Notes under the pieces: model-generated
Databases searched by the model: none
What the model saw: the letters and a program-made list of their open reading frames with translations, nothing else
Told to the model about the DNA's origin: nothing
Virus record (IMG/VR): IMGVR_UViG_3300034061_002582
Location: 1-37,607 of that record
Reading direction: 5' to 3' (one strand)
DNA from: a virus
DNA length: 37,607 nucleotides
Shown: one piece after another, positions 13,338 through 36,900 of the stretch
Position numbering within the stretch: the first letter of the stretch is position 1
Layout: the number at the start of each line of letters is the position of its first letter
Translations under genes and position numbers: made by a program

Positions 13338-13338
13338 C

Positions 13339-18029: not shown

Positions 18030-18304
18030 CACTTCACCTTGTTCGACCAGTAGCGTGCGGACAAGATGGACGGATCGTCGTCTTGTGCGTTGTGGCGGGC
18101 GTAGTAGCTCCGTCTGCGGGCCTTCTCCGCTTCTGTCTGCGGGCTGCTGCCAGCGCCCTCGACGCCCTGCTGGCCGAATCGGATCAGCTTCTCCTCGCCG
18201 TCGCTGCACGCTTTGACAACGTGCGACTTCGTGTCGTGCGATGGAGTCTTTCGCGGGCTGTTGCACTCCAGTTCTGATTTGAGCGAGCGAATCCTATCGG
18301 ACAT
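18026..18304 (-). CDS. Conserved phage-type protein, 92 aa
   Basis: ATG 18304 with modest ribosome site. The block LIRFGQQGVEG (residues 45-55), then RRRSYYARH and finally SARYWSNKVKW resembles a short protein type found beside virion genes in many phages; I recall the IRFG-Q-G, R-S-(F/Y)-x-ARH and YW-x-x-K-W pattern but not a function. Soluble and basic. Overlaps the next gene by a GTGA junction. Confidence 0.75.
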   Translation of the reverse strand: MSDRIRSLKSELECNSPRKTPSHDTKSHVVKACSDGEEKLIRFGQQGVEGAGSSPQTEAEKARRRSYYARHNAQDDDPSILSARYWSNKVKW

Positions 18305-18542
18305 GGCAACTCCCGCTTGTGCAGGTGGTGCCATTCAGAGTGATCTTCGGCCTGTTCTTCGCGCACGGGCAGGTGGCAGGGCAGCTACACGGCCCCCTGT
18401 GCAGCCTGTCTCCAGACCAGACCATCCCTGTTCCCTCGCAGGCATCGCAGCACTTGCCAGCGGGAACGGGCTGCGGGGACGGGGCCGGAGACGGCGATGC
18501 GAACGCCATCCAGACGGCAACTACGGCGGCGGAAATGCTCAT
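18294..18542 (-). CDS. Secreted Cys-rich protein with DnaJ-like zinc motif, 82 aa
   Basis: ATG 18542 follows AAGGAGGTG. Residues 1-15 are a probable signal peptide or membrane anchor (MSISAAVVAVWMAFA), then a Pro-Ser-Ala linker. CDACEGTG (residues 32-39) is a CxxCxGxG zinc motif as in DnaJ, followed by GPCSCPATCPC. It probably binds zinc or forms disulfides outside the membrane. Start overlaps the stop of the peptidase gene (ATGA). Confidence 0.65.
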   Translation of the reverse strand: MSISAAVVAVWMAFASPSPAPSPQPVPAGKCCDACEGTGMVWSGDRLHRGPCSCPATCPCAKNRPKITLNGTTCTSGSCHVR

Positions 18543-19477: not shown

Positions 19478-19486
19478 TGCGCCCCC

Positions 19487-19903
19487 CTACCGGATTTCTG
19501 CAAACGCTTTAGCCGCCGCATCTCGCGACGACGGCGTCAGTTGCGAGTCGGTCTTGCCGACAGCGTCGAGGAGATAGGCGTCCAGCCTGTCGCCAAGCCC
19601 GGCATACTTTCCAACCATCCCGGTGCTGGCGAACGCCATCTGGAGGGCCGACTTGTGGCGTGCCCGGAGGTCGAAGGTCGTCTTGCAGACCGGGTCTGGA
19701 GCCTTCCCGTCGCGGACAACGATGTCGGCCATTGCGGCGTAGAAGTCCCGCAGCAGCTTGGCGTCGGCTGAACTGACTCCAGCCAGTATCGCGGACGGAA
19801 CCACAACCGGGTGAACTACTGGACGCAGTGCGGAACCGGCAACGCCGAAAGCCGCCGAACAGGCGGCGGCGATAAGCCCTACGGCAATGATTGCACGCCT
19901 CAC
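19487..19903 (-). CDS. Secreted hypothetical protein, 138 aa
   Basis: GTG 19903 follows GAAGGTAGCC, overlapping little with the preceding stop. Residues 1-24 (RRAIIAVGLIAAACSAAFGV) are a signal peptide; the Cys at 15 is near a lipobox-like run but position -3 is Ala, so lipoprotein status is doubtful. The mature part is helical (DFYAAMADIVVRDGKAPD). Function unknown; periplasmic location is likely. Confidence 0.65.
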   Translation of the reverse strand: MRRAIIAVGLIAAACSAAFGVAGSALRPVVHPVVVPSAILAGVSSADAKLLRDFYAAMADIVVRDGKAPDPVCKTTFDLRARHKSALQMAFASTGMVGKYAGLGDRLDAYLLDAVGKTDSQLTPSSRDAAAKAFAEIR

Positions 19904-19905
19904 GG

Positions 19906-20142
19906 CTACCTTCCCTTCCTCGCCGGGTTGACGAGAGCGTCGATCAGAGCCCTCGCGGCTACGGCCACCCCCTGCTCTCCAGCGGCATCAGAATCCGCAG
20001 CAAGGGCGAACAGCCGGTTGACCCACAAGGCCCGGCTGGCCGACGAAATCCCGGAGGACGACTTCGCGAACGGTAGGTATGGGTACGCAAACGCAGCAGC
20101 GGAAGCCGCCAGCGACACCACGATGATGATGGCAACCGTCAT
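19906..20142 (-). CDS. Small membrane-anchored protein, 78 aa
   Basis: ATG 20142 overlaps the upstream stop as ATGA. Residues 2-19 (TVAIIIVVSLAASAAAFA) are a membrane anchor or signal. The rest is Ala-rich and helical (LFALAADSDAAGEQGVAVAA). No family recognised. Part of the coupled minus-strand run of small envelope proteins. Confidence 0.65.
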   Translation of the reverse strand: MTVAIIIVVSLAASAAAFAYPYLPFAKSSSGISSASRALWVNRLFALAADSDAAGEQGVAVAARALIDALVNPARKGR

Positions 20143-20414
20143 TCCGGCACCTCTGTCAGGCTGACGGCGGTCGCCAGCTTCACGATGTAGTCCACAAGCT
20201 CGCGACCGGCTTGGCTCATAAGAACGGCTTGAATCCGCTCCAGCAGGTCGTCGTCAATGTGCGTGTTCGTTTTCGAGGCGACGAACCGCATGAGTTTGAG
20301 CGCCCCGTCGATCTGCTCTTGAGCCGTTTTTGCGGCGGATATTTCCGACACTAGCGACAATGCTGGTGCCCACTCCACAAGCTGCCGGATTTTTTCGCCT
20401 ACCGTTTGAGCCAT
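20139..20414 (-). CDS. Hypothetical helical protein, 91 aa
   Basis: ATG 20414 follows GGAGAGGCGACC. All-helical composition (EKIRQLVEWAPALSLVSEIS, then LLERIQAVLMSQAGRELVDY). No motif. Its 5' 160 bases overlap the 3' end of the gene at 20254 in another frame, an unusually long same-strand overlap. Confidence 0.65.
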   Translation of the reverse strand: MAQTVGEKIRQLVEWAPALSLVSEISAAKTAQEQIDGALKLMRFVASKTNTHIDDDLLERIQAVLMSQAGRELVDYIVKLATAVSLTEVPE

Positions 20415-20793
20415 TTGGTCGCCTCTCCGAGAGCCGTGAAACGTGTCTCACTAGGAGATTTATGTCCCGGCGAGGGCGGCCCCGTGACACGATTTTCCGG
20501 CGCACCAGAGACTCAGAAATGCCTATATCCCGGCAGGTCTGTGAGAACGTGAACTCCCGTCCAGTCCCGTGAAACACCCACCGGAACGCGGCAACCTGCC
20601 TCCGCAGAGTCTCTGCCGCCCCCTTCCCGGTTCGGTACACGATGTCGTGCCCGTCCCGGCGGTGTGCCTCAAACAGGTCAAGGCAGTGGCCGTAGGAGCG
20701 GATGACGACCTCGATGCAGAATCGCCGCCATCCGTCCTCGCAGAACTCTGTGATGTTCTGGTCGTCGTATTCCGGCTCAGGGAGCGCAATCAT
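20254..20793 (-). CDS. HTH-containing protein, 179 aa
   Basis: ATG 20793 overlaps the upstream stop as ATGA. Residues 1-95 are alpha-helical and rich in conserved-looking aromatic residues (WRRFCIEVVIRSYGHCLDLF). A likely HTH (TCRDIGISESLVRRKI) lies at about 92-107, followed by a very basic Arg-rich tail. The tail's codons overlap the 91-aa gene by 160 bases. The functional protein could end earlier by frameshift or the overlap may be real. A DNA-binding packaging or regulatory role is possible. Confidence 0.55.
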   Translation of the reverse strand: MIALPEPEYDDQNITEFCEDGWRRFCIEVVIRSYGHCLDLFEAHRRDGHDIVYRTGKGAAETLRRQVAAFRWVFHGTGREFTFSQTCRDIGISESLVRRKIVSRGRPRRDINLLVRHVSRLSERRPNGSNGRRKNPAACGVGTSIVASVGNIRRKNGSRADRRGAQTHAVRRLENEHAH

Positions 20794-21149
20794 TTGACTG
20801 GTGCCTCGCAATAGCCCGTTCGCAGCTTGCCCTCGTTCAACTCCGGCCAGACCTCCAGCGAGTGAATCGCACCCATGACATTCCACGCGGCGTGACCCAG
20901 ATGGTCCTCGTCGCGATTGCCCGACAGGAACATATAGATGTGCCGCAGGGCATGGTTGAGAAGGTCGTTCGCTGGCATACCCTTCTCCCAGTTGAAGTCG
21001 TCGTACTTCCTCGCTCCCTCCGCACACGCAGCCGCCACTGCCGCCAAGCCGATTGGCGTTATGAGGTCGTAGCGGAGCGACTCCGCGTCGGACGACCGCA
21101 CCGCACCAGACGAATACTCGACCGCACTGCCCTTCACTTCCTTTATCAC
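20790..21149 (-). CDS. dATP/dGTP diphosphohydrolase-like protein, 119 aa
   Basis: Conserved blocks RYDLI (residues 26-30), EGARKYDDFNWEKG (44-57), NHALRH (65-70) and EDHLGHAAWN (81-90) match the phage dATP/dGTP diphosphohydrolase N-terminal family (PF18909 type) as I know it. The acidic and His residues would bind metal and nucleotide. Start is GTG 21149, overlapping the HD gene stop (GTGA) with GAGGTG five bases upstream; an earlier ATG at 21200 is less likely. The adjacent HD hydrolase suggests that both act on the nucleotide pool. Confidence 0.75.
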   Translation of the reverse strand: MIKEVKGSAVEYSSGAVRSSDAESLRYDLITPIGLAAVAAACAEGARKYDDFNWEKGMPANDLLNHALRHIYMFLSGNRDEDHLGHAAWNVMGAIHSLEVWPELNEGKLRTGYCEAPVK

Positions 21150-21661
21150 TTCGTCACCTCCAGAAAACGTGCCTCGAACAACTCCTTCGCATCCTTCCAC
21201 GAACGCGGCGTCAGACAGCCGCCGATTGGCTCTGCGTCGATGCCCCAGTCATGCTGTACTGTCATGAGGGCATCCTTCTCGAAGATCAGCGCCCTGCTGT
21301 CCGCCTCCTTCACGGCCTGCGGAATCGGCCACCGCAGGCCGAATACCTTCGCGATCACCTGCTGAACGTGCCGCTCTAGCTCGACGTACTGAGGCAGCAT
21401 CACCTTGAGCGGGCGGGCAACGTCGCCTAGATACGCCTCGCTCGCATCGTGCATCAGCCCCCACAGAGCGTCCTCGTGCGACACCAGCTTCGACACGAGG
21501 ACGCTGTGCTGCGCCACCGAATACGGCTGCGTCGTGTGCCCCGTGAACCGATTCACGAGCGACAGCGAATGGGCTATGTCCGGTAGGCGAACGTCGCTCT
21601 CGCTGAACGAGCTAAGGTCAACAAGTTTTCCTGTAAATGTTTGCATCGTTGTGCTGTTCAT
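21146..21661 (-). CDS. HD-domain nucleotide phosphohydrolase (YfbR/DatZ-like), 171 aa
   Basis: Metal-binding residues of the HD superfamily are visible: NRFTGH (37-42), SVAQHS (48-53), MHDASEAYLGD (70-80). The opening TFTGKLVDL with DIAHSLS is shared by phage HD hydrolases that remove phosphates from deoxynucleotides; YfbR and the dATP-hydrolysing DatZ belong to this group. ATG 21661 overlaps the upstream stop as ATGA; an internal ATG at 21646 is possible. Coupled to the dATP/dGTP hydrolase that follows. No adenylosuccinate synthetase-like PurZ is seen in the window. Confidence 0.8.
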   Translation of the reverse strand: MNSTTMQTFTGKLVDLSSFSESDVRLPDIAHSLSLVNRFTGHTTQPYSVAQHSVLVSKLVSHEDALWGLMHDASEAYLGDVARPLKVMLPQYVELERHVQQVIAKVFGLRWPIPQAVKEADSRALIFEKDALMTVQHDWGIDAEPIGGCLTPRSWKDAKELFEARFLEVTK

Positions 21662-22185
21662 CCCTCGTACTCCTGACAAATGAGCGGCGTCACTGGGGAG
21701 AGGTCCGCCTTCGGCACGAAGTACGCCTCTCCGTATCCGCCGTAGTTCTTCCGATACCTGCCTGCCTTCGCGTCCTTCCCTCGCAGCCAGCCATGCACCA
21801 CGAAGTCGTTCGGACCGCCAGTCACGAGGACGAAGATGTCACCGTCCGCATCTCCGTCCCGCACGAGCAGGTCGTAGTCGTGCTTCGACCGCGTCCGCAC
21901 TTGGATCGCCCCAACGTCGCCTCCGTTCTTGAAAGTGTTCACGCTCCCCGACCAGTACCTCCCGGTGGCCTTCGCAAAGGCACACTCACCGAGAGCGCCG
22001 AGAATGTGGACGTGCCACTCGCTGTCGTTTGTTGGCCTTGAGTTTTCGAGCCCTTTTCTTAGTGCCTCGACGTTTCGGCTTACGCCGACCAGTGCTGCGC
22101 GGCTCACCTCGAACCACTCCAGCCTCACCCTCACTGGGCGCGTGGAGTCTGATCCACCCGTCGTCGTCTGGTATCGGGGAGCCAT
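21658..22185 (-). CDS. PD-(D/E)XK-like nuclease-fold protein, 175 aa
   Basis: Glu67 in GALGECAFAK, Asp90 in GGDVGAIQVRT and the Gln95-x-Arg97 pair resemble the E-D-(Q/E)-x-K arrangement of the restriction-like nuclease fold. Then come DLLVRDGDADGDIFVLVTG and HGWLRGKDAK. I have seen this layout in uncharacterised phage proteins. Activity is uncertain because Arg replaces the usual Lys. ATG 22185 follows GAGGAAGACT; TTG 22209 is a weaker option. The first 200 bases overlap another ORF on the same strand. Confidence 0.65.
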   Translation of the reverse strand: MAPRYQTTTGGSDSTRPVRVRLEWFEVSRAALVGVSRNVEALRKGLENSRPTNDSEWHVHILGALGECAFAKATGRYWSGSVNTFKNGGDVGAIQVRTRSKHDYDLLVRDGDADGDIFVLVTGGPNDFVVHGWLRGKDAKAGRYRKNYGGYGEAYFVPKADLSPVTPLICQEYEG

Positions 22186-22234
22186 AGTCTTCCTCGTCGT
22201 CGTCTTCAATCGGGCCGAAGGTTTTGTCCGACAT
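21986..22234 (-). CDS. Possible overlapping acidic-basic protein, 82 aa
   Basis: ATG 22234 is in a TGATG overlap with the HNH fusion gene stop. Residues 1-25 are strongly acidic (FGPIEDDDEEDYGSPIPDDD) and the second half strongly basic (RKPKRRGTKKRARKLKANKR). It shares 200 bases with the nuclease-like gene in another frame. The first 50 bases are its own. It could be a real overprinted gene or a non-coding frame; the precise junction with the previous stop favours the former. Confidence 0.4.
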   Translation of the reverse strand: MSDKTFGPIEDDDEEDYGSPIPDDDGWIRLHAPSEGEAGVVRGEPRSTGRRKPKRRGTKKRARKLKANKRQRVARPHSRRSR

Positions 22235-22935
22235 CACTGCGCGTCCATGACCTGCGAAACAAAGGTTGCAATCTGCTCAAGCGGAAACGTGACCAGCCAC
22301 TCAGAGTCGTTGCGTCGATGCAGCACGACGGGGACCAGCGAGCCGCACTGCTCGCGAGACTTCTCCATCACGGCCGTCAGGTTCAAAGCCTGCACGCGCT
22401 TGACCTCAAGCCAGAGATTCGGAGTTCCCGGAGCAATGAGGTCGCTTGCGCTTTCCGTGCCAGAGTGCTGCTGGCTGCGTCGTGCGTGCGCTCGCGGCAC
22501 GAGTCGGTTCCATTCCGCCGCAGCCTCAAGCTCTCCACGCTTTCCCTTCTGCCGACTGTTGATTGCCATGCGAACTAGCTCCGTTGGGATTCCGTTCTTT
22601 CGCCGCCACTCCAGCAGGTACTCAGGAAGCGGCTCAGGGCCGTACCCGAGATGGCGCTTGTGACGCAGCGCCGCAAGAAACTCAGGGTCGTAGTTGGCGT
22701 CGTCGCACTCACGCTTGGCCGTGAGGCACTGCCCCTTCGTGAGGTTGTTCTTTCCTCCGAAGTGCAGGCCGTCGTGGCACCACACGCAGAGCCGCAGGAG
22801 GGCCCGCCGATCATGCACGCGACCCGCCCCCTGCTGGAGGTGGTGGATGTGCAGTGCCTGCGAGCGGCTCCAGCAGACCGCGCAGAACTGCATCTGCGCG
22901 GCGAAGGCCGATAGTTCTTCTCGCCCATCGCTCAC
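22234..22935 (-). CDS. Fusion of HNH-like zinc domain and PD-(D/E)XK (Hjc-like) nuclease, 233 aa
   Basis: N-terminal half: Cys18 and Cys21, HIHH (29-32), Cys50, Cys53 and His54 form an HNH-type zinc-binding nuclease module. C-terminal half: NSRQKGKRGELE (126-137) with Glu135, Asp165 in SASDLI, and Glu177-x-Lys179 in WLEVKR reproduce a Holliday-junction-resolvase-like PD-(D/E)XK core. Both halves lie in one frame. It may cut branched recombination or packaging intermediates. GTG 22935 overlaps the preceding stop (GTGA). Catalytic status of the HNH part is uncertain. Confidence 0.75.
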   Translation of the reverse strand: MSDGREELSAFAAQMQFCAVCWSRSQALHIHHLQQGAGRVHDRRALLRLCVWCHDGLHFGGKNNLTKGQCLTAKRECDDANYDPEFLAALRHKRHLGYGPEPLPEYLLEWRRKNGIPTELVRMAINSRQKGKRGELEAAAEWNRLVPRAHARRSQQHSGTESASDLIAPGTPNLWLEVKRVQALNLTAVMEKSREQCGSLVPVVLHRRNDSEWLVTFPLEQIATFVSQVMDAQ

Positions 22936-24184: not shown

Positions 24185-25774
24185 CTAGGGGCGATCTTGC
24201 CCCTGCTTCCGTCGCTCAAGCTCGCTGCGGACAGCGGCCTTGAACGGCGAATCCTTCTTCTGGGCCTCCATGACCCAAGACAGATAGCCCTCCGGGATCG
24301 AGCGCAGAGGCTGACCCCGATACTTGCCGTACATCATTCGCCAGCCCCGCTCCTTCTTGCCCTCAGGCTTGGCGAATGGATCGCGAGTCTCGTGATCGAA
24401 CGTGACTCCGACGAGCAGCGACTTGCGCTTCTCCAGAAGCTCCTGAGCCTGCCGCTCCAGAGCCTCCAGCTCCGCAGAGTCGGCCTCGCGGATCGCCTCC
24501 ATCGGGTCGCAGCCGTCCATCGACAGGGCGGAAGCGAGACGCTCGCGGCGAGTCGGTGACTTCCGCAGCTTGGCGTCGAGAACGTCGAACACCGTCAGCA
24601 GTTGCTGATTGCGAAGGTTTCCGGTCAGGTCGTAGTAGGAGAAGTGCGGCTTGCCGCTTGCGAGGATGGCGGCACGACGCTCGTCGCGGCTCATCTCCGG
24701 GTGCAGCGTGCCACCCAGCGCACGGGTGCCTCTGCCGATTCGCTGTTCCAGCCTCGAAAGGCTCTTGGTCGGTGCTGCCGAATAGATGTTTCGGAGTTCT
24801 GGAAAGTCCCAGCCGAAGCCAAGAATCCCGACGTTGACGATGATCTTCCGCTCACCGCTGATGAAGGCGTCCATGTTCGCCTTCCGCTCGTCCGCCCGCT
24901 GCTTCGAGTAGACGACGCTGGCGGCGACACCGTACCGCGAAAACACCTCCACCAGCAGCTTGGCCTGCCGGATGGAGTGGGCGTAGACGACGCTAGGTTC
25001 CTGCTGGAACGTCGAGAGAACGAGCGACGTTACCTCCTGAGCGCAATGCTCGGCGGACAGGATGTCGCTGAGTTGCTTGCGATCCCACTCGCCAGCCACC
25101 TCGTCCACCAGCGTCAGGTCGATGCTCTTGGACTCGCTCAGAAAGCACTTGGGCGGCACCAGCCATGCGTCATCCAGAGCCTGCCGCAGCGTGTAGACCG
25201 ACTGCGGGCGAGGGAAGTACCGCAGCCCCTTGCCCTTGCCCTTGTACGGCGTTGCAGAGAAGCCCACGACGGTCGCACCAAGCGACTCGAAGTGGCAGAG
25301 CATCCGCTCCATCGAAGCGGTCATCTTGTAATGGCACTCGTCCACGCAGACCAGCGACACGCGGTCGTAGGCACGGGCCTTGTAGCGGTCGTTGGAGAGC
25401 AGGCTGTCACGCGAGCCGACGATCACGCGGCTCCGCAGCCCCTCAATCCACTCAGCCCGGCTCCCTTGATGCTCAACGTCGCACCGCTCTCCAAGCCGAA
25501 GCTCAAGGCGGTCCCGGCCCTGCCGCATGAGGTCGATCAGCGGCACGATGAACAGCGGGTGCTTCGCGAGGCGGCAAAGCTCCGCGACGACTTCGGTCTT
25601 GCCAGTGCCTACCGGCTGGCAGACCGTGATCCTTCGCTCGCCGTTTTTCGCCGCACGGCAAACGTCCTCGACGGCCTGTAGCTGGTAATCCCGCAGGAAC
25701 TGCCGCCTTTCGGCTCGCTCCACCTGCCGGGACACCTCAGCCGCACCAACGCACTCCGGGCAGTCGCTCGTCAT
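24185..25774 (-). CDS. SF2 DEAD/DEAH-type helicase with DUF3820-like tail, 529 aa
   Basis: Motif I PVGTGKT (54-60), motif II DECH (145-148), motif III SAT (173-175) and motif VI QRIGRGTR (about 337-344) are all present, so a working two-RecA-domain ATPase is expected. The C-terminal MMYGKYRGQPLRSIP with YLSWV resembles the short DUF3820 module, seen fused to or near phage nucleases and helicases. The N-terminal CPEC may be half a zinc site. ATG 25774 overlaps the upstream stop as ATGA. Likely helps annealing or replication with the ERF and exonuclease genes upstream. Confidence 0.85.
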   Translation of the reverse strand: MTSDCPECVGAAEVSRQVERAERRQFLRDYQLQAVEDVCRAAKNGERRITVCQPVGTGKTEVVAELCRLAKHPLFIVPLIDLMRQGRDRLELRLGERCDVEHQGSRAEWIEGLRSRVIVGSRDSLLSNDRYKARAYDRVSLVCVDECHYKMTASMERMLCHFESLGATVVGFSATPYKGKGKGLRYFPRPQSVYTLRQALDDAWLVPPKCFLSESKSIDLTLVDEVAGEWDRKQLSDILSAEHCAQEVTSLVLSTFQQEPSVVYAHSIRQAKLLVEVFSRYGVAASVVYSKQRADERKANMDAFISGERKIIVNVGILGFGWDFPELRNIYSAAPTKSLSRLEQRIGRGTRALGGTLHPEMSRDERRAAILASGKPHFSYYDLTGNLRNQQLLTVFDVLDAKLRKSPTRRERLASALSMDGCDPMEAIREADSAELEALERQAQELLEKRKSLLVGVTFDHETRDPFAKPEGKKERGWRMMYGKYRGQPLRSIPEGYLSWVMEAQKKDSPFKAAVRSELERRKQGQDRP

Positions 25775-26151: not shown

Positions 26152-26832
26152 TCAGGCCAACGCGGGCTGACGCTCTGCGGACTTGGCGAATTCCTTCGAG
26201 TCGAGGTCGGCGGCGATCTTCTCGATCCGCTCGACGGCAGAGGGCGGCAGCATCCCCTCCGCAGCGCCCTTCTTCGCACGGGCAACCTCTGCCTTTCGGC
26301 CAGCCGAATCCTTCGCGGCTCGCACCTTCGCAACGAGTGCCTGCTCAATGCGGGACTCGTCGTTGGCAACCGCTACTGCCATCGAACGATTGGCCGTCTC
26401 GCCGTCGTCGTCGTCGTCAGCGGCAATGCCGACGGCCGCACACAGGGCAACCCGCTTGAGGTAGGTCGCCGTCTTGGCGAGTTCCTGCGGCGGAATGTTG
26501 CCCTTCATCGGGAGGTAGGACCGCTCAAACTGGCCGCTGGAATGGCCGATGGTCGTGACGAGCATCACGCCACCGTCATCCTTGAACGGGTGGAAGGTCT
26601 GCCGGATGGACAGGCCGTTCTTCCCGTAGACGGCCCTTACCGTGTCGAACACGGTCGCGAGGTCCGCGTAGTCGGGCAGCAGCTTGCCCGTGTCGCGGTC
26701 CTTCTTGGCCCAGTTGGAAAAGCACGTTCGCGGAGCGTTGCGAAGCTCGCCAAAAGCCTTGCCCATAGCGGCGTAAAGCTCATCGACGGCCTCGCTACGC
26801 TCGTTCCAAATGCTCGTAGAAATCGCAGACAT
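26152..26832 (-). CDS. ERF-family single-strand annealing protein, 226 aa
   Basis: The ERF core is visible between residues 50 and 145: DYADLATVFDTVRAVYGKNG, then TTIGHSSGQFE, then ATYLKRVALCAAVGIAADDD, the typical YLKR-x-x-L-x-x-x-xGIA-x-DDD ending. It anneals complementary single strands during phage recombination. The C-terminal third is a charged helical region. ATG 26832 overlaps the upstream nuclease stop by one base (TGATG), so the exonuclease and annealing protein form a Red-type pair. Confidence 0.85.
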   Translation of the reverse strand: MSAISTSIWNERSEAVDELYAAMGKAFGELRNAPRTCFSNWAKKDRDTGKLLPDYADLATVFDTVRAVYGKNGLSIRQTFHPFKDDGGVMLVTTIGHSSGQFERSYLPMKGNIPPQELAKTATYLKRVALCAAVGIAADDDDDGETANRSMAVAVANDESRIEQALVAKVRAAKDSAGRKAEVARAKKGAAEGMLPPSAVERIEKIAADLDSKEFAKSAERQPALA

Positions 26833-27905
26833 CAGACTCTCCTCAGTGCATGGGCCGGAAACGGAAGCTCAACCACCTCGCCGTGTGATTCCGGCAACCA
26901 CCAGTCGAGGTTTTCACGAAGACGAAGATCAGCGAGGGCGCGGACCATCTGCTCGCGGCCCTGCTCAACGACCTGCTCTGGCAGCGTCACGACTTGAACG
27001 TCGTGCGGCAGCGAGGTCGAAATGACGATGTAGTGGATCGGCCGTTCGAGGAGGCCGCAGGCTTCCATCCCGGCGCGATACCACGCCTCCGAGAAGCCGT
27101 ATCGGAAGTCAAGCACTGACTTCCAGAAGTTTGCGAGGATGTCGGCCTCGCGAGTCGTCTTGAGGTCTACGACGATGCCGTCGCTCGTCAAGGCGTCGAA
27201 GCGGCAGCGAAGCAGGTGGCCGTCTGCCGTTTCCCAGCGGACGGAGAGTTCCCTCTCCACGATCCGCGACATCAGTTCGCGTGCAGCGGGATGCCGCTTG
27301 ATCGCCTCTGCCTCCAGCCGAAGCTGGCGGGCGAGCTTGGGCGACACCACTGTCGCGTCCGGGCCAGCCTCGTTTTTCGCCCACTCAAGGGCAGTTTTGC
27401 CAACCTGCCCGGTCGGTGTTAGCCTGTCTTCTGGAGGGACCGCCAGCGAGTCAAGGAAGGCATCGCCCTGCTCGAACCACGAGTGGAGCAGCAAGCCATG
27501 CTCTAAGGCATCGCTGCTCTGCTGGGGGATCGTGCGGGCGACGTAGCGGCCGTAGTAAAGCGCAGGCGAGTCAAGGAACGTCTTGACCCGACTGCAATTC
27601 CTATATGACTCGTCCCCGTGATAGTCGGCGTTGCTCTCTCCACGCCGAACATCCGCAACCGAAGGCCCTGCCGACGCAATCGAAAGAAGAGGGTGGCTGA
27701 CGGGACTCGAACCCGCGACCCCTAGAATCACAATCTGGGGGTCGGATAGCCCTTCGGTGGTGCCGATTTTATCGGACTCACCGATTGTGGGGGAACCGCC
27801 CACAGCGGTGCCGCCAAACTGGGGGTTGAGCCCTTCCGGTCCTGCCGGAAAAAAGTCACTTGGGTCTTGCGATGTGCGCCGTAACGCTTCGCCAACTACT
27901 ACCAT
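26832..27905 (-). CDS. RecE/PD-(D/E)XK-type exonuclease; 5' end uncertain
   Basis: The conserved domain starts near YHGDESYRNCSRVKTFL (about 27640 leftward) and carries ALEHGLLLHSWFE, then RCRFDALTSDGIVVDLKTT, where the two Asp and the Lys form the nuclease core of the RecE/DUF3799 type. It should degrade one strand of double-stranded ends for the ERF protein. The coordinates given are the full open frame from ATG 27905, but the first 85-90 codons run through attP and its tRNA-derived sequence and read like a spurious extension. No ATG lies between attP and the domain; a GTG at 27731 lies in the tRNA anticodon. The 5' end therefore needs experiment. Confidence 0.75.
   Translation of the reverse strand: MVVVGEALRRTSQDPSDFFPAGPEGLNPQFGGTAVGGSPTIGESDKIGTTEGLSDPQIVILGVAGSSPVSHPLLSIASAGPSVADVRRGESNADYHGDESYRNCSRVKTFLDSPALYYGRYVARTIPQQSSDALEHGLLLHSWFEQGDAFLDSLAVPPEDRLTPTGQVGKTALEWAKNEAGPDATVVSPKLARQLRLEAEAIKRHPAARELMSRIVERELSVRWETADGHLLRCRFDALTSDGIVVDLKTTREADILANFWKSVLDFRYGFSEAWYRAGMEACGLLERPIHYIVISTSLPHDVQVVTLPEQVVEQGREQMVRALADLRLRENLDWWLPESHGEVVELPFPAHALRRV
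27691..27735 (-). other. attP core: 3' part of a tRNA-His gene
   Basis: On the minus strand this reads as the anticodon loop TTGTGAT (anticodon GTG, His), the 3' anticodon stem, the T arm GGGTTCGAGTCCC and the acceptor strand AGCCACCC. The D arm and 5' acceptor are absent, so it is not a tRNA gene. A stem mismatch at tRNA position 28/42 (C against A) suggests the identity with the host gene ends at the anticodon stem. It lies 170-215 bases upstream of the integrase, as usual for tRNA-targeting integrases. Confidence 0.85.
27736..27903. promoter_or_regulatory. attP right arm and integrase leader
   Basis: This segment contains CCGAT-TTT-ATCGG (27763-27775), a second CCGATT at 27782, and GATTGTG (27783-27789), the inverted copy of CACAATC in the att core. 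These may be arm-type integrase sites or a hairpin. No clear Shine-Dalgarno precedes the integrase ATG. Confidence 0.4.
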
Positions 27906-28710
27906 GATCGACCTCCCTGCCGTCGCCTCTCGCTATTGCGAGCAGCACATCCTTGCCGACGAATACGCGAAGACTCTATTGCGTACCGCTCGGAATTGTC
28001 AACGGTTTACAAACGTAAATGACTTCCTTCGTCACCGCCTCAAGACCGTAAAGCCGATCACGGCGAAGAACGACCGTGCCATGCTGCTGATCTTGATGCG
28101 GTACGCCTACGAGCATGGGATGCTCAAGGAGTACCCTCGCGGAGTCGCGTCCATCAAAGCTCCGAAGGCTCCGACGAAGGCATGGACTTTAGAACAGTGC
28201 TGTACGGCTGTCAAGTCCGCCCGCCAGTGGCGTGGAAAGCGGTTCCGCAACGGTGCGGACAAGGGGGCGTTTCTTGAGTGCTGGATTCGGCTGGGCTACG
28301 CCACCGGAGCCCGCTACGCCGACATCATGGCGTTGCACAAGAAGCACTTTTCGGGAAATAGGCTGTACTACAGCCAGAATAAGACCGGGAACCCGATCTC
28401 CGCAGTGCTGAACGACGGCGTTGTGGCCTGCGTCCGTGAATTGCTGGCGAAAAGCCCGGACGGCAGGGTTCTGGGGTGGGTATGCGGCAAGCGGTGGGCC
28501 ATGCGGACGATGAAGAAGCTGCTGGCGGACTGCGATCTGGAGGGGTCGAGCAAGTGGTTGCGGCGATCTGCCGCCACCCACGTTGAAATGCAGCAGCGTG
28601 GGGCCGCAAAGCTGTTTCTGGGCCACCGCACGCAGGGGCTCGCGGACAAATACTATGTAGATTGGGGGCAGGTTGGGTCGGATTACCCGCCGCCACCAGA
28701 ACTCGCATAG
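27904..28710 (+). CDS. int: Tyrosine recombinase/phage integrase, 268 aa
   Basis: Catalytic blocks: Arg137 in ATGARYADI, Lys160 in SQNKTG, a box-II pattern KWLRRSAATH with Arg220 but Lys217 where His is usual, LGH with His241, and Tyr250 in ADKYYVD. An N-terminal SAM-like region (RYCEQHILADEYAKTLLRTA onward) covers the first 85 residues. It would recombine attP with a host tRNA-His gene, judging from the tRNA fragment upstream. ATG 27904 is the sensible start, since a longer frame would read through attP. Its stop abuts the convergent virion gene. Confidence 0.85.
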   Translation: MIDLPAVASRYCEQHILADEYAKTLLRTARNCQRFTNVNDFLRHRLKTVKPITAKNDRAMLLILMRYAYEHGMLKEYPRGVASIKAPKAPTKAWTLEQCCTAVKSARQWRGKRFRNGADKGAFLECWIRLGYATGARYADIMALHKKHFSGNRLYYSQNKTGNPISAVLNDGVVACVRELLAKSPDGRVLGWVCGKRWAMRTMKKLLADCDLEGSSKWLRRSAATHVEMQQRGAAKLFLGHRTQGLADKYYVDWGQVGSDYPPPPELA

Positions 28711-31700
28711 CTAGTCGAAAAGCGACGGCACCTGCGTGTCGGACTTCCGCCGGGCCTTGCGCTTGCCCTGCTCCTTGCGGGGCTTGCGGGCCTCCCTGCG
28801 CTCTCTGGCGAGGCTGCGTGACACCGCCAACTCTCGCAGGACGCTTGGCGGCACATCCGGCTCCATGTCTTTGGGAATGTACACCTGCTTGAACTCGCGG
28901 GTGTACGGGTCAATCGAACGCTCGATGTCTCGGACGGCTGCGGCCTTCGCCTCCTCGTCGGAAACGTCGCGGAACGAGGTGCCGGTCCCCATGTTCACGA
29001 CGGTCTTCAACCCTCGCGACCACAACGGAGCCTCTCCTCGCAGGTCCGTCAGCGAGCGCAGGGCATACAGCGGGCGAGCGGTAAACGGTGCGTTCTCAAT
29101 CAACGCTTCCGCCAGATACGGAACGTCGAAGCTGCGGTTGCCGGTGATGTTGCGTCCGATGGCGTCGAGCGTAGATGTGGATTCACCAAGCGGTCGGTCG
29201 GTGAAGAAGTCTTGGCCGGAGACTCCTTGCAGCAAAGCCTTGATGGCTGGATGCGTCTGCATCGCAAGCTGGCGAAGCGTCCCGCTCGCACCACCGGCTG
29301 CGTCGATGGTGTTCAGTTCCGAAAATCCCGGAAGCTGGAACTTCGTCCAATATCGCTGCGTTCCGGGAGCGGGCTTTCCGCCCAGCATCTCCGGCAGCGG
29401 GATCGCAAGCTGCGCCCGGAGCGAGGAAGGAATGTACTGCTGGTCGTTCTCGTCTTGGACGTTGTTCGCGGTTTGCAGTATCTGCCCGAAGCGACCACCG
29501 GGCCGCTCGACCAACTGCCGCAGCACCTCGCGGAACATCCTCGACTGGTAGGTGTACCATGGCAGCACGCCCTTGAGGTAGAGCCTCTCGAACTCGCTAA
29601 GGCTCGTCATGTCAACGTGGACGCGCTTCATCGCAGCGGCAGCAGCACTCGGCTCCATGCCCTGCCCGATGAGTGCCATATAGCCGCTGATGCGGTTGAT
29701 GCCGTCCGTCAGGGAGTTGAGCTTCTCGCCCGCCCGCATGATCGGATTCTGCGTCTCGACAAGCGGCTGGAGCTTCGACCTCCAAGTCATGAAGTCCTTG
29801 CCGAACTGCTTCCACGAGCGATCCGCCTGCGGCATTAGCTCGCTGGCTATAGAGGACAGGTTGACCGGCTGTGCCCCAACGATTGGGTCGAGCGCACGCT
29901 TGCCGATGGTGCTGGCCCCGATCTCGAAGCCCGTCGGGCCTTGAATGAGCCCGGTGCCAGCGAGGTCGCCGTAGAACTGCGCAACGCCGTCGTCGCCAGC
30001 GTATCGCGACTGCCTCGACAGCCACTCCCGGAACTTCGTGCTATCCGGCCCTTCACCCATCAAGGACTTGGCGGCGCTGATCGACGCCGGGTCGAAAGCA
30101 CCTTCCAGCCAGTTGCTCACGGCCCCTGAGTAGAGGTCGCGAACCGCACGCGAGGGCCATGTGAGGATCGACCCACGCCACGCCTGCGTGTAGTGGTCGA
30201 GCCAGTTCAGCAGACCGTTTGCCGCTTCTCCGGTGGAGTAGGCATCGCGGGCTCGGGTAAGACGATTGACGGCGTCTTCCGGGATTGAAACGTCTGCCAG
30301 AGAGACGTTGTCGGCCTTCGTCTTCCACAAGCGAGCCAATCGCTCGCGGATGTGCCGCTCGCCTCCGGTCGCACCCTCGTCGTAGGTTCTGGCTCCGATT
30401 CGACGCAGGGCCTCCTTCATGGAGATGTGCCGACCCTTGTCGGTGTAAGGCCCCTGCTCTGCGAACGTGGCAAGAGAGTCGTACATCGTCTTCATCGTCG
30501 CCTCAGACTCGGCTCGGCCGGTCAGGTACGATCCGATGCTTTCGACGGGATGCTGGCCGAACAGCGGGGCCTTCTTCACGACATCGTCCGGGAGGGCGTG
30601 CAGCGTTCGAGCAACGCGCAGGGCCTGCTTCCGCGTGATCGGCGGCTGGCCGGGCTGGATCATCGGCGCGAGCGTGTCGATGATGTGCTGCGCGGCTTCT
30701 TCGTCGCTCCCGGCACCACGCTTGGCACCAGAGACGAACGTGTCCTGCGACAAATCCATGATCGTGTCGCGTCCGCCGGGCAACTGGAAGGCGTCCGTCC
30801 GCCGCAGCATATCGCCAGTAAAGGCAGACAGCGCATCGCCTAGCTTGCGGTCACGCTTGGACTGCATCTCCAGAGCCGCCTCTGCCTTTCGCGGCAGGTA
30901 CTCCGATCCATACTTGTCCACAAGCTCGGCGTCGGTGAGGCCAGCGCGACGAGAGCGATCCAAAGCCTCCTCTCGGAGATTCTTCCATCCGGCGATGTAG
31001 TTCTCTGCGCCGGGCCGTTCGGCAAGCCATGCCCGGTCGCTGGCAGACCACGCATCCTGCGGAGTCTCCATCAGTCGCCCCATGACGCGGTTGCCTTCCT
31101 CCGTGAAGGCGTCTGGGGTCGTCTCGTACAGGCGAGCCCGGTTGTACGCATCGGCGTTGGCGGCGGCAGACCGTGCCGACTTCCGGGCATTGAAGTTGGC
31201 GACCTGCGTCAGTTGTTCTTCCGCGTCCACTGCGCCGCCGACCTTGTTGTCGAGCAGCGAGGCTGTGTATCTGCCCGGAGCGGACCAGCGAGCGGCCTGC
31301 CCAAGCGTGTCTAGGGTGTCGGCGTAGGCGTCACCAAAGCCCTTCCCAAGCCAATCGCCAGTGATCTTGGCATCGCCCAGCGGTAGCCCCAGACCAAAGG
31401 TGTCGGCCAGCCGCTCATTGCGGAACGTATCAAGGTTGTCGCCCAGAAGCCTCCTCGCTGCGTCCTCAGCCTGCTTCGGGTCGTCGGCGTGCCGGATGAG
31501 GTCGTCCAGCGTCACGGCTCTGCGGGCCGTCCTCGTGCCGTACAGAGGGCGTCCAGTGACGGCCGGGTCAAAAGTGCTGACGGTCTTGCGGCCAGCCTTT
31601 TGCAGTTCGTTCATCGTCCGCTTGGCGACCACCGGAATGTCGCCAGCAGCCGCAGCACCCGACGAGATTGCTTTCTTCGTGGCAACGGATGCAGCGTTGT

Positions 31701-32118
31701 CGAGCAGGCCAAGCGATTTCGCCGCCCTGCCCGCCTTCGTCAGTGCCGTCGCTGGACCTGACAGAAAAGAAAGGGGGTCCGTAACCGTGTCGGCAGCGAG
31801 CCCCAGCGCGAATGACCCCCAGTTGTTCTCCTCCGGGACAATGCCGTAGCTCTTGAGCAAGTCCCTGCCGCCGACACGCTCTCCCGGCTTCCCAGCCAGA
31901 ACGCCACGCAGGTAGTCGCCCGGCGCAGACAACGCATCGCCAACCATGCCGACAGTACCGCCAGCAAGCTCGCCAGCCTGACGCAGAACGGAATCCCGCT
32001 CGTATGGCGTGACCTCCGTCTGCTCGACAGGCTCGTCCCGCAGCGCAGCGTCGTCAAACAGCGGAAGATAGCCAGCAGCAGGCTTCCGCTTCGGACGCAG
32101 GTCGTCGTACAGCAGCAT
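28711..32118 (-). CDS. Large virion-associated protein (internal/ejection type), 1135 aa
   Basis: The N terminus has GDALSAPGDYLRGVLAGKPG followed by a DLL, NNWGSFALGLAADTVTDPLSFL stretch, the type of sequence I associate with large internal or ejected phage proteins. The middle is long and helical. A segment near residue 840 (LKGVLPWYTYQSRMFREVLR) is hydrophobic-aromatic and may contact membrane. The C terminus is basic (RKPRKEQGKRKARRKS). ATG 32118 follows AGGTGAGAT. No enzymatic motif is seen. Size and position with two other large genes support a virion role; podovirus-like internal core is a guess. Confidence 0.6.
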   Translation of the reverse strand: MLLYDDLRPKRKPAAGYLPLFDDAALRDEPVEQTEVTPYERDSVLRQAGELAGGTVGMVGDALSAPGDYLRGVLAGKPGERVGGRDLLKSYGIVPEENNWGSFALGLAADTVTDPLSFLSGPATALTKAGRAAKSLGLLDNAASVATKKAISSGAAAAGDIPVVAKRTMNELQKAGRKTVSTFDPAVTGRPLYGTRTARRAVTLDDLIRHADDPKQAEDAARRLLGDNLDTFRNERLADTFGLGLPLGDAKITGDWLGKGFGDAYADTLDTLGQAARWSAPGRYTASLLDNKVGGAVDAEEQLTQVANFNARKSARSAAANADAYNRARLYETTPDAFTEEGNRVMGRLMETPQDAWSASDRAWLAERPGAENYIAGWKNLREEALDRSRRAGLTDAELVDKYGSEYLPRKAEAALEMQSKRDRKLGDALSAFTGDMLRRTDAFQLPGGRDTIMDLSQDTFVSGAKRGAGSDEEAAQHIIDTLAPMIQPGQPPITRKQALRVARTLHALPDDVVKKAPLFGQHPVESIGSYLTGRAESEATMKTMYDSLATFAEQGPYTDKGRHISMKEALRRIGARTYDEGATGGERHIRERLARLWKTKADNVSLADVSIPEDAVNRLTRARDAYSTGEAANGLLNWLDHYTQAWRGSILTWPSRAVRDLYSGAVSNWLEGAFDPASISAAKSLMGEGPDSTKFREWLSRQSRYAGDDGVAQFYGDLAGTGLIQGPTGFEIGASTIGKRALDPIVGAQPVNLSSIASELMPQADRSWKQFGKDFMTWRSKLQPLVETQNPIMRAGEKLNSLTDGINRISGYMALIGQGMEPSAAAAAMKRVHVDMTSLSEFERLYLKGVLPWYTYQSRMFREVLRQLVERPGGRFGQILQTANNVQDENDQQYIPSSLRAQLAIPLPEMLGGKPAPGTQRYWTKFQLPGFSELNTIDAAGGASGTLRQLAMQTHPAIKALLQGVSGQDFFTDRPLGESTSTLDAIGRNITGNRSFDVPYLAEALIENAPFTARPLYALRSLTDLRGEAPLWSRGLKTVVNMGTGTSFRDVSDEEAKAAAVRDIERSIDPYTREFKQVYIPKDMEPDVPPSVLRELAVSRSLARERREARKPRKEQGKRKARRKSDTQVPSLFD

Positions 32119-32121
32119 ATC

Positions 32122-33978
32122 TCACCTGCGAGGGTAGGGAGACTGGTTGCCGCCGGGAACAAAGAGTGGCTGCGAGAGCATGGCGTCCATTTCCTGCTGT
32201 GCCGTCGTGGCCTGCGGCTCGGGAGCGCCGGGAGCCCCAGCCCATGCCGAAGCTGGAGCAGAGCTAAGGCTGTTCCAGATGTCTCCGGCCAAGTCGCCAG
32301 CCCACTGCGCCCATCCGCCAGACTGCTGCGGAGGAGCGACTCCACCAGCGGACGACTGAATGATTACGTCCGCTGTTTGCTCGATCTTCTCCGGCGGAAC
32401 AGTTCCCATTTTCGTCAGGATGCCAATGACAGCGGCCCGTCGCTGCGCAGGGTCGCCAATAGAGAGCGCCGACCCGATTTCTCGCTGGAACTGCTGGGCA
32501 TACGGGACGTTGCCCTGCGGCCCGCCTGCCCTGCCTGTCGCTTCCGCCTCCGCAGCAGCGGCCTTGCCCGCCGCGTCGGACTGCGATGCAGCGAGGGCAA
32601 GGTAGTCGTGGGCGGCTCGCTCGTTCCCAAAGGAACTGTGAACCGCAGCCACCTGCATCGGATCGCCGGTCTGGGCGGCCTGTTGCAGACTCCGCATGTA
32701 CGCCCCCTGAGCCACTCGTGGATTGTTCGCCATCCGCACCATGTTGATGTTGGCCCAGTTGTTGCGGACGTTCTGCTGCCGCAGGCCAGCGTCAAAGCGA
32801 CGGGCCGCGCGGTCGATGTTCCGCAACTGCTGCATACCTTCCGGCGTCTTGGCGGCAGCGTTGATCTCCTCGAACGTGACGAGCGGCTTGCCGCTTTCGT
32901 CCACCAGCCCCTTGTGGCGGGCGTACACCTCGTCGGCAAACTTGTTGCGGCGGCGCTCCTCCATAGCCGTGCGGGTCTTCTCGCTCGGGACGTAGACAAA
33001 GCCGCCCATCGGATTCGCCTCGATGGTGTACTTGCCCTCCATTGAGGCGTGCCGCTTCTGCTCGCGAGCAACGTCGGCCTTGAGCAAGTCCATGTCGTCG
33101 CCGTACTGCGTGGCGTCGATTCCATACGCCTGCGCAAGAGCCATCGTGTGCGAAGCGGAGTTCGCTCCCTGCTCGGGGTCAGCCGCAATGTCAGAAGCCA
33201 GAGACAGCATCTCGGGATTCGGGGCACGAGACGACGTAGAACCGTCCACGTTGTAGGTGGACGTACCGCCGAAACGGTCCATCGGCACTTCCGGGCTGTG
33301 GACATTGCGGGACATCTTCCGCCGCTGCTCCGGCGTGTACTGGCTAATGTCACGCCCCTCCGGCAACGGCTTTCCTGCGGCCTGCCGCGAGCCTGCCAGC
33401 CCGCTCTTTTCTCCCGGCAGCAGGTTGGGGTCTTGCCCTGCTTGGATTCGCGGAGTGGCTCGGGCGGAAGCAACGACTTCGCCCGGCGTCGATCCAGCGA
33501 AGTTCGCAGACAGCCAGTCCTCGTAGGTCATGGTCTGCGTGTGACCGCTTCCCTCATAGCGACTGCGAAGCCGCTTGGCATCGGAAGGGCTCATGGATGC
33601 GAGGTCTGGGACAGGCGCATCCACAGACGGCGGACCGCCAGCAGCCCACGCCTCTTTCCCCCGCTGGCGATCCGCAATCGGCTTCGAGTCATTGGCAACG
33701 CGAGTGCGGAACTCAACGGCAGCACGGGCCTGCTTCTCCTTCTCCGCTGCGTTCTGCGCAGCCAATCGCTTCTCGGCGTCGGGGCTGTAGTCGGGCTCGA
33801 ACTTTCCGGTGGTGCGGTCCAGCACCTCGACCTTCGGCTCGGGCGGGAACATAAATGCAGACTTGTCTCGCTCGTCGTTTGGATCAACGAGAGAAGGGCC
33901 GCGTGCTTCCGCCTGCCGCTGGCGCATCTGCTCCTGTTGGAGTTCGTACAGTCTGCGGGCGATGTCGCTTCCAGCCAT
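32122..33978 (-). CDS. Large Gln/Ala-rich virion-associated protein, 618 aa
   Basis: ATG 33978 follows GGAGGAACTGACAA, three bases after the upstream stop. Starts with a coiled-coil-like stretch (ARRLYELQQEQMRQRQAEAR). The protein is mostly helical and low in motifs, and ends in a Gly/Pro/Ala-rich tail (SAPASAWAGAPGAPEPQ, then MDAMLSQPLFVPGG). Between two large genes on the late strand, it is probably an internal virion or scaffold-like protein, but I recognise no family. Confidence 0.55.
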   Translation of the reverse strand: MAGSDIARRLYELQQEQMRQRQAEARGPSLVDPNDERDKSAFMFPPEPKVEVLDRTTGKFEPDYSPDAEKRLAAQNAAEKEKQARAAVEFRTRVANDSKPIADRQRGKEAWAAGGPPSVDAPVPDLASMSPSDAKRLRSRYEGSGHTQTMTYEDWLSANFAGSTPGEVVASARATPRIQAGQDPNLLPGEKSGLAGSRQAAGKPLPEGRDISQYTPEQRRKMSRNVHSPEVPMDRFGGTSTYNVDGSTSSRAPNPEMLSLASDIAADPEQGANSASHTMALAQAYGIDATQYGDDMDLLKADVAREQKRHASMEGKYTIEANPMGGFVYVPSEKTRTAMEERRRNKFADEVYARHKGLVDESGKPLVTFEEINAAAKTPEGMQQLRNIDRAARRFDAGLRQQNVRNNWANINMVRMANNPRVAQGAYMRSLQQAAQTGDPMQVAAVHSSFGNERAAHDYLALAASQSDAAGKAAAAEAEATGRAGGPQGNVPYAQQFQREIGSALSIGDPAQRRAAVIGILTKMGTVPPEKIEQTADVIIQSSAGGVAPPQQSGGWAQWAGDLAGDIWNSLSSAPASAWAGAPGAPEPQATTAQQEMDAMLSQPLFVPGGNQSPYPRR

Positions 33979-33981
33979 TTG

Positions 33982-36900
33982 TCAGTTCCTCCCAGTCCAG
34001 TTTTGAATCACTTGCGTAGTCGGCACCGACACGCCCATTCGGGAGCCACGAATTCTTGCCAGCGCACGGTCGATGGCACTCTCGTTTGAGAGTGCGTCCA
34101 AAGATGCTCCGTCTGATCCGGGCGGAACGGGCATCGGAGGAACATCAGACGCTTGTGCGCCAGTGCCGCTGCCGCCCATGTTGGACAGGGCCACTAGCCC
34201 GCCGACAGCGCCAGCACCAAGCAGCCAGCGAGGCAGGCTGGAGCGAGGCTTGTTGGGCTCGGGCTTTGGCCTTCTTTCGCCAGACGTCTTCGAGGTCTTC
34301 TTGGGCCCGGAGGTCGTCGCATCGTCCACTTTCTTTGCGTCATCCGCAGCGGCGATTGGCTCCGGCGTGCCGGGCGTAGCAGAATCAACTCTCGGCCCAG
34401 CGTCTGGAGTTGCTGGGGCATCGCCAACCGGCGGCAGCGAACCGGAGCCGTCAACGTCCCCGCCGACTTTAGTTGTCGATGCGGCAGGAAGCCCGGCAGT
34501 CGCCTCAACTGGAGCAAGCGACGGGCTGGCTGCTGCCGGAGCGGGGGCTGTGGTGGTAGCGGGAGCCTTAGATACAGTCGCGTTAGCCGCCTCCATTTCC
34601 TTGCGGACCTTAGCGGCTGCGTCGGCCCCAGCCTTCTTGGCGGCAGACCGGCTCATCCCCTCGTCGCTCGCCTGACGAATCGCCTCCTCGCGTGCAGCGT
34701 CTGCGGCCTCCTTGATCTCTGCCTTGCTGTAGGACTTAGACGGCGCAGGGGCTGCGGGGCCAGCGGGCGGTATATCTGTGGGATCGGAAATGTCGGTCGC
34801 AGACGAAGCTAGGTTTACGTCGCTCGCAAGCGGCTTTTGGCCCGGAAGTCCGACAGGCGGAAGCGATCCGGCAGTGGTTGCCGTCGGTCCCGGAAGCCCA
34901 ACGGGCGGAAGCGATCCGGCAGTTGTGGCCGTCGGTCCCGGAAGCCCGACAGGAGGCAGCGAGCCAGCAGGCACTGGGTTTACGGCAGTCACCGTGACTC
35001 CGGCCTGCGAAGCCGGGACAGTTCTTTGTCTTCCTACAGAGCTTGGAACCCATTCACCCTTAGCCGCATCCCATCGGACAACTCGCCGTGAGACTGGCGC
35101 AGCATCCGCGTCGAGGCCGGATGCAAACGAATCGAGCGTCGGCCCACGCATCGTCACGCTGCCAGCCCGGTCGGCGTCAGTAAGTCCGGGAAGCCCTGCG
35201 GACGGATCGGATACGCTTGCGAAAGCGTTGCTGGCTTGCTGCAACTCGCTCGCTGCGTCCGCGAGCTTCTGCTTCGCCTCAGCAATGGCCTCTGGGCTGT
35301 ACTTGTCGCCCTTCCTCATGGAAGCGCGAACGTATTCAGCGCGAGCGATGTCGTACCGCCCCTGCGCACGCCCAAGCTCGACCCGTCGCTGGTCAAACTC
35401 CTCAACTCCGCTAAACGGATTTTGGCGACCGGACGGCACGCGAAGGCCCGCAGCCTCGCTTGCCAGTTTCGCGAGCCGGGCAGGCTGCGGAAGGTCAGCT
35501 TCGTTCAGATAGACCGGGTTCCCGTTGCCATCCGTCGTTATCCGATTAGTCGTCGCTAGTTCCGTATCGCCGTTTCGTCTCGGAATAAACGGCAGCGCAG
35601 GGGCCTGCTCCGCGACATTCGGGCGGAATCCCTCGAACGGAATCGACGCCGGGTCGCGAGACGTTCCCTGCGGGACGGCGGGCTCAGTGGACACGGGTGC
35701 TGGCAGGTCGCGGGCAGAGCCGTCAGCAAGCTCGTTTCCGCCGTACATCTTCTCGATGTTTCTCGCAGCCTGCTCGCGGGCCATGATGTAGTCGGCAGTG
35801 CCGGGCTCATACGGACCCTTAGACAGCAGCTCGTCAGCGATCTGCTCTGGCGTCATGCCGTACTGGGCAAGCGGGTTGCGTCCACCGAACAGGAACTGCG
35901 CAGCGCCCTGCACTCGCTCAAGAGGCATCCGCCCGCCACGAATCCGTCCTCCCCCTCCGGGAGCATTGGAGGAGAGGTCTGCCTGCGAAACCTCTGTGTC
36001 CTTGCCGCCGACTTCGCCTCCGAACTCGTCTCCGAATTGCGAGACGATCTCCTCACGCTGCGCAGCGAGGTCATCGGGCGAGATTTCAGCCGACGACCTG
36101 TTGAGCCGCTCGGCAGCACGCGGGCGACTTCCACCCGCCAGAACAATCAAGGCGTCATCGTAGTGCCGCCTCTGCCCAAGCGAGTCTCCGCTCGCGTCAG
36201 CACGCTGTTCCAACGCCCCAGATGCACGGTCGCGGCCCTTTAGCCACAAAGGCAGGTCGCGAGTCAGCTTCTTGCTGGCAGCTTCTGCTTTGGCAATCGC
36301 CTTCGCATCACCAGACGCTCTGGCTGCGTCCAGATCGCTTCGCACTCGGTCTACAACATCGTCGCCATGATGCATGCGCAGCCGCGTCTCAAGCGGAAGA
36401 CCGGACGCCTTTCGGGCGTTTGCAGCCGCCGCCTCTGCCTCACGCTGCGCGCCAAGCTGGTCGTCAAGCCAGCTAGGTGGCTCGACGGGCGAGTCGAGTG
36501 CGACTTCGGGCGTCATGGCCCCCTGTCCGCGAAGCGACGGCTGACCCGGACTGGCGAGCGACTGCGAAGAATCCGACGCCTGATTCATAGCCGCACGCAA
36601 CTCAGCTTCGACGGCACGCCGTCGGCGGACGGCGGCTATGGCTGCGGCCCGGTCTGCGGCAGGGGCTTCGCGAATGAGGCTGCGGAGAGTTTCTGCCGTC
36701 TCCGGGTTGTGATATGGGTCCGCAAGAAGCGAGTCGAGTTCCTGCACCAACTCGTCAGCAGCGTTTGCAGGGCGCGCCAGCGACTCAAGCGTCTCGGGCA
36801 GCACGCGGGCGGCACCACCGGATACCTCGACCGCCTCGCGGGCAGAAGGCCCAAGCCTACGGACAATGTCAGCCTGCAAGGCCGAAGGAAGCGAGTTGAA

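Follow-up and report, generated by a model that had tools for sequence, protein, structure and literature searches.

A probable tRNA-His attachment site within the reading frame of a phage exonuclease gene, and the gene's predicted fate on integration

Introduction

What becomes of a phage gene when the attachment site lies inside its reading frame? The question is raised by a stretch of viral DNA of 37,607 nucleotides (the window, by which we mean the whole stretch analysed), in which part of a tRNA-His gene stands beside a tyrosine recombinase gene (int) and also falls within the open frame of a divergently oriented exonuclease gene (exo). A reading made earlier from the sequence alone had recognised the tRNA piece as an attP; it missed that this attP lies inside the exo frame and that the mismatch at its edge is a sense codon, CAG, set against a host stop, TAG. 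We argue below that the window probably comes from a temperate planctomycete phage whose attP is built into the N-terminal coding region of exo, so that integration would switch exo off and excision would restore it. The features discussed are collected in Table 1.

Table 1. Positions of the attP core, exo, int and neighbouring features in the window
Feature	Position	Strand	Remark
RusA-like	22234-22935		downstream cluster
DEAD/ResIII-type helicase	24185..25774	-	same leftward gene cluster as exo
ERF-type single-strand annealing protein	26152..26832	-	next gene after exo; one-base overlap with exo stop codon
exo, exonuclease VIII / DUF3799 PD-(D/E)XK-type nuclease, 357 aa	26832..27905	-	open frame crosses attP core
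attP core, tRNA-His (GTG) part	27687..27736	-	50 bases identical to best host, L062; starts at the 5' strand of the anticodon stem, includes the anticodon loop and ends shortly beyond the acceptor end
Inverted repeat around anticodon loop	27717..27743	-	GACCCC-C-AGA/TTGTGAT/TCT-A-GGGGTC
exo edge codon	27735..27737	-	CAG in phage, TAG (stop) at 23/23 host sites
exo start codon ATG	27903..27905	-	palindrome CATG shared with divergent int start codon
int, tyrosine recombinase, 268 aa	27904..28710	+	beside core
Shine-Dalgarno-like GGGAGG of exo	27912..27917	-	within int codons
Promoter-like TTGACA-N18-TAGAGT for exo	27973..28002	-	within int codons

Results

Origin of the attP core

A run of 45 bases on the minus strand (27692-27736) corresponds to the 3' portion of a tRNA-His (GTG) gene, beginning within the anticodon stem and reaching the acceptor end; ARAGORN recognised no complete tRNA in the window. 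The sequence-only reading had placed an attP overlapping the 3' end of a tRNA-His at 27691-27735; the core is indeed there, displaced by one base. We searched for it, with C or T allowed at one position, in the genome contigs of 84,980 species, each represented by a single genome. All 23 exact matches were intact tRNA-His(GTG) genes of planctomycete MAGs. They are spread over 22 genomes (G001-G022; L057 and L061 come from the same one), every one of which belongs to a single 72-genome planctomycete family. A chance origin of the match is excluded, and both the overlap with a tRNA-His 3' end and the suggestion that the core offers a route to the host were borne out. The core likely corresponds to the insertion site in the host tRNA-His of freshwater planctomycetes.

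Identity between the window and its best host stops exactly at a C/A mismatch, the point that had been proposed as its edge. Across the 11 phages that carry the core it extends for 47-51 bases, and past the mismatch not one further base matches in any phage when compared with its best host. An attL assembled in silico from the window and one host (L058) was recognised as an intact tRNA-His, in agreement with the earlier prediction that integration would restore the host gene; the attP and attR stretches were not recognised as tRNAs. The locus has the features of an attP used by a tRNA-targeting tyrosine integrase, namely the 3' part of a host tRNA, an adjacent tyrosine recombinase and a tRNA restored on integration (in silico, with one host). 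The inverted repeat around the anticodon loop probably provides the core-binding sites of the integrase, with the 7-base loop as the putative overlap region.

Once duplicate records were removed, 11 distinct phages with the tRNA-His core were left: the window, L004, L005, L012, L013, L014, L015, L016, L017, L073 and L077. Searches of viral contigs returned 5 loci with the window int protein, 41 with a six-sequence int alignment and 4 with exo; the core itself was found as 2 exact stretches and as 9 with the one C/T position. All 9 are attP forms, none with an intact host tRNA-His beside exo. The C/T-pattern scan missed the L015 record, which contains the pattern, so scans of this kind can miss records. 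For L077 and its copy L079, ARAGORN did call a tRNA-His, but the 5' half of this call consists of exo codons and lacks the usual TAGCTCAG element. Among the 43 non-duplicate loci examined first, 40 have exo beside int or, in L012, at the contig end, and no exo match was found in L027, L029 or L047. No phage record with a similar int was found, and 213 records had a similar exo, every one below 60% identity.

Thirty related loci, here termed group B (19 distinct sequences, many near-identical), have no tRNA piece. The N-terminal codons of exo contain inverted repeats in some of them (L019, L034, L026, where the arms are 15 bases long, and others), which may serve another target, as attP cores or as operators. 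With no target identified, group B was left out of the attP-in-exo count.

The int protein matches phrog_1 in PHROGs (E 1.6e-13) and reaches 18 bits in Pfam, below the Pfam cut-off of 27.1. The best PDB fold match of its structural model (pLDDT 73, modest confidence) is lambda Int by E-value, at a TM-score of only 0.39, and from its length we infer that it has no lambda-type arm-binding domain. Many residues are invariant among six aligned int proteins, all of which have KWLR at the position that we take to be the HxxR motif. We considered whether integration splits int and rejected this, as the int ATG comes 166 bases after the core edge in the window and 109-166 bases after it in the 10 phages measured. 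Leftward, exo heads an exo-ERF-helicase cluster. Among the proteins scanned, which covered part of the frames, none was recognised as a repressor. Elsewhere in the window, a serine resolvase/invertase gene (13339-14076, plus strand; Resolvase 1.2e-29) lies near a large tail-like gene (14563-17262) and might act as a second switch, working by inversion. On the minus strand at 28711-37479, three very large frames (1135, 618 and 1165 aa) have no PHROGs or Pfam match.

Reading frame and putative start signals of exo

The C-terminal part of exo matches DUF3799 (2.3e-15) and exonuclease VIII (phrog_412, 2.7e-46); its AlphaFold model (mean pLDDT 43) was too poor for use. The same frame is open from the ATG through the core into the nuclease in 11 of 11 phages, the core lying in frame within the N-terminal part of the protein. 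Translated in this frame, the core reads ..PQIVILGVAGSSPVSHP.. in the window and EIVILGV.. in L012 and L073. The distances from the ATG to the core edge are 168, 147, 168, 117, 165, 144, 150, 129, 111, 156 and 141 bases, each of them divisible by 3 (the value of 129, for L016, uses the outer ATG). Because these distances presuppose an open frame, we also counted stops with the int ATG as the sole anchor, in the 10 phages in which the int start is visible. From the ATG complementary to that of int, a stop-free frame runs into the core in all 10, at 9 different distances; read in the other two frames, these stretches contain 15 and 23 stops. L012, whose contig ends before int, has the same exo frame. 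Between the ATG and the core the sequence changes rapidly, with 84, 72 and 109 differences at codon positions 1, 2 and 3 in the six most similar pairs, which overlap; this distribution suggests a modest coding signal.

The start codons of exo and int share one CATG in all 41 loci that have both genes, L073 and L077 included; many of these loci are near-identical. Forty of these were counted by a script anchored on the int ATG, and L038, where homology to int starts too far in, by direct reading. A Shine-Dalgarno-like GGAG precedes the exo ATG in 10 of 10 tRNA-His loci with upstream sequence, and a TTGACA-N18-TA motif lies at -97/-100 from the ATG in 10 of 10 tRNA-His phages. When the int codons were redrawn synonymously, the promoter-like motif arose in 0.5-1.3% of draws; an independent scan of 27400-28150 found it as the sole promoter-like site, against 0.2 expected. 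None of the 30 group B loci has the motif, the exo/int layout being the same, so exo must start otherwise there. No consistent promoter motif was found in the int direction. The predicted start codon, Shine-Dalgarno-like sequence and promoter-like motif of exo are thus all placed on the integrase side of the core.

Perhaps this is an ordinary tRNA-type attP between divergent genes, with an open exo frame that is fortuitous or inconsequential and an exo that starts downstream? The poor conservation of the N-terminal stretch would fit, and so would the presence of possible later starts: the anticodon GTG lies within the core in 11 of 11 phages, and three phages have a further GTG or TTG within 80 codons of the edge codon (GTG at codon 30 in L004 and L015; TTG at codon 39, followed by later ones, in L077). 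In the remaining 8, however, the anticodon GTG is the only ATG, GTG or TTG in those 80 codons. Moreover, the frame is kept at every one of the 9 lengths, the Shine-Dalgarno and promoter-like motifs are conserved upstream of the CATG start, and the same CATG-started exo occurs in group B, where there is no tRNA piece. We consider an ordinary, inconsequential attP unlikely.

If the attP is instead part of the exo gene, as we favor, the mismatch at its edge acquires a meaning. Read in the exo frame, the C/A difference puts a sense codon in place of an in-frame host stop: the edge codon is CAG in nine phages and GAG in two, and TAG at all 23 host sites. The attL assembled from L058 and the window brings two host TAGs into the exo frame, this one and, ahead of it, one within the TAGCTCAG element. 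From this layout and these stops, a prophage exo should be without a promoter of its own and, in most phages, without a likely start.

One codon deserves a separate look. In all 11 phages the anticodon GTG, directly behind the host TAG, is a possible in-frame start, and a lysogen might use it to make a shorter nuclease from the tRNA-His promoter, integration then altering exo and not silencing it. We think this very improbable. No Shine-Dalgarno sequence is evident before the GTG, which sits in the anticodon region of a tRNA, a structured and processed RNA, and no such start exists in the tRNA-Met form (G005) or in host tRNA-Val joined to the exo of L038, both described below. Silencing remains the reading that we prefer.

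Integrated copies

No integrated copy of the tRNA-His clade bounded by the core was found in the genomes searched. A search of the genomes for close relatives of int gave 19 pattern matches and no relative, and the 22 host genomes and the 72-genome family contained only distant recombinases, 24-31% identical where aligned. It had been proposed to look in bacterial genomes for the 45-base core at the ends of tRNA-His genes with a prophage alongside. The tRNA-His ends were there in 23 of 23 cases, but no int or exo domain accompanied any of them within up to 8 kb; the exo matches at these loci consisted of tRNA-coded residues alone. Integrated relatives in another gene, named in advance as evidence against the proposed site, were not encountered for the tRNA-His clade.

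Could the phages have ceased to integrate, the tRNA piece being a relic kept only as coding sequence? The lack of integrated copies is in keeping with this. Coding alone, however, would not require a core that is identical in all 11 phages, one C/T position aside, where the preceding exo codons vary in both sequence and length, and the many invariant residues of the six int proteins also argue against a relic. We give this explanation the least credence of those considered, and continue to regard the core as a probable working attachment site.

Two other observations were made at host loci. On contig C19 of G014 (12301-22076; L129/L130), a 9.7-kb island lies between an intact tRNA-His and a second, partial copy and contains a 591-aa recombinase-like frame, recognised by eye; the same tRNA-His is used there by another, different element. 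On contig C205 of G015 (L081/L086), two distant tyrosine recombinases lie in tandem; their identity to int is about 31% and 30%.

Other tRNA genes

Locus L038, whose int and exo are 43% and 47% identical to those of the window, has the same CATG arrangement, and the piece in its exo frame is the 3' part of a tRNA-Val(GAC). No ATG, GTG or TTG follows in frame from the core to codon 136. The 40-base core of L038 occurs exactly in 3 of 392 planctomycete genomes (G492, in two places, G636 and G613) and within 3 mismatches in 67 of the 392; 11 of the 12 loci given for it were called tRNA-Val(GAC), L166 being the one not called. In the two host tRNA-Val genes that we read, the D-arm contributes a TAG to the exo frame. 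Another planctomycete genome, G736, has 13 matches (4 forward, 9 reverse) to a tRNA-Val 3' end at up to 3 mismatches, and these multiple ends perhaps represent many integrated elements.

DUF3799 genes were matched in 44 of 392 planctomycete genomes, 41 of them over the cut-off, and we looked for tRNAs beside them at 30 loci and at L087-L098. Among the genes checked, only that of the MAG G005 directly follows an intact tRNA. Here a tRNA-Met is followed at once by an exo homologue and then by an ERF-like gene (23.9 bits, just under the curated 25). The exo frame is closed by a TAG of the tRNA and offers no ATG, GTG or TTG before position 6564, about 169 codons in. This would be the predicted integrated form, for an exo that is only distantly related. 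On the side of the element the contig stops before the element's other end is reached; neither an attR nor a close int was found in G005, and tblastn gave no viral relative of its exo among 7 pattern matches. In four planctomycete genomes, tRNA sequences lie close downstream of DUF3799 genes: a tRNA-Met in L104 (2297-2372), and tRNA-like 3' ends at about 2468 in L111, about 2372 in L118 and about 1308 (minus strand) in L126.

Discussion

The arrangement suggests how integration could act on exo. In the circular or virion genome, translation driven by the promoter and the Shine-Dalgarno/ATG signals within int would cross the tRNA piece and continue into the nuclease, the phage CAG or GAG in place of TAG holding the frame open. 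A crossover at the anticodon loop would make the host tRNA-His whole again. At attR, beside int, would then stay what lies ahead of the exo coding body, namely its promoter, its ribosome-binding site and its ATG, and the nuclease body would come to lie behind the tRNA at attL, closed by the in-frame host TAG, as it is in the in-silico junction. Since the attP is inside the exo frame, insertion should sever the nuclease from its promoter and start codon; given an exo start on the integrase side and the host TAG, one and the same event should rebuild tRNA-His and behead exo. Integration would in this way silence exo, and probably the exo-ERF-helicase cluster with it, and excision would restore them. 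For the downstream genes (ERF, helicase, RusA-like), silencing is a prediction; host tRNA transcription might read into the cluster, in which case these genes could stay on.

A broader proposal can be made, which we put forward tentatively and with more doubt than confidence: integration itself may be the lytic/lysogenic switch of a lineage of planctomycete phages, the promoter, ribosome-binding site and start codon of an early recombination operon being placed across attP so that only the excised circle, and not the prophage, can express it. Such a design may have originated with, or been redirected to, tRNA-His, tRNA-Val and perhaps tRNA-Met. If true, it would be the mirror image of integration-dependent immunity, with attP in the head of a lytic-pathway gene and not in the tail of a repressor, and the state of the DNA would itself be the off switch. 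An attP built into a coding frame would then not be confined to a single phage gene or a single tRNA. Stop-codon avoidance would account for mismatches of one base at the edges of attP, and a group of uncultured phages would be tied to one planctomycete family.

How does this compare with known systems? In the integration-dependent immunity of mycobacteriophages (BPs and relatives), attP lies in the repressor gene, and in BPs a TGA stop arises at attL from the host base adjoining the core (PMC9262239; PMC8092301). The present case is alike in several ways: attP is inside a phage gene, the integrase is a tyrosine recombinase, attB is in a tRNA gene, the host base at the core edge replaces a sense codon by a stop at attL, and integration would change the product (PMC9262239; PMC8092301). 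In the mycobacteriophages, the repressor loses a C-terminal degradation tag and becomes active (PMC9262239; PMC8092301). Here, in contrast, the gene that holds attP is not a repressor gene but DUF3799/exonuclease VIII, and a recombination nuclease that loses its promoter and start should become inactive.

The suicidal integrases of SSV1, pTN3 and pT26-2 have attP in their own int gene and are stated to be exclusively archaeal (PMC8371274). Common to them and to the present phages are an attP in a coding frame of the element and a gene split on integration, and SSV1 also shares the tRNA target and the anticodon loop as overlap (PMC8371274). Unlike in those elements, attP here lies outside int, which stays whole, the neighbouring gene is the one split, and the phage is bacterial. 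Helper-embedded PICIs interrupt a prophage late gene on integration and restore it on excision (PMC10111431). A phage gene is likewise interrupted and restored in our scheme; the PICI is a satellite that interrupts a gene of another element (PMC10111431), whereas this phage would interrupt its own. A literature search, which covered mostly titles and the openings of abstracts and left subscription papers mostly outside, gave no report of an attP inside a phage exonuclease gene. The trick of placing attP within a gene is common to BPs and the suicidal integrases; what differs here is the gene and the opposite outcome.
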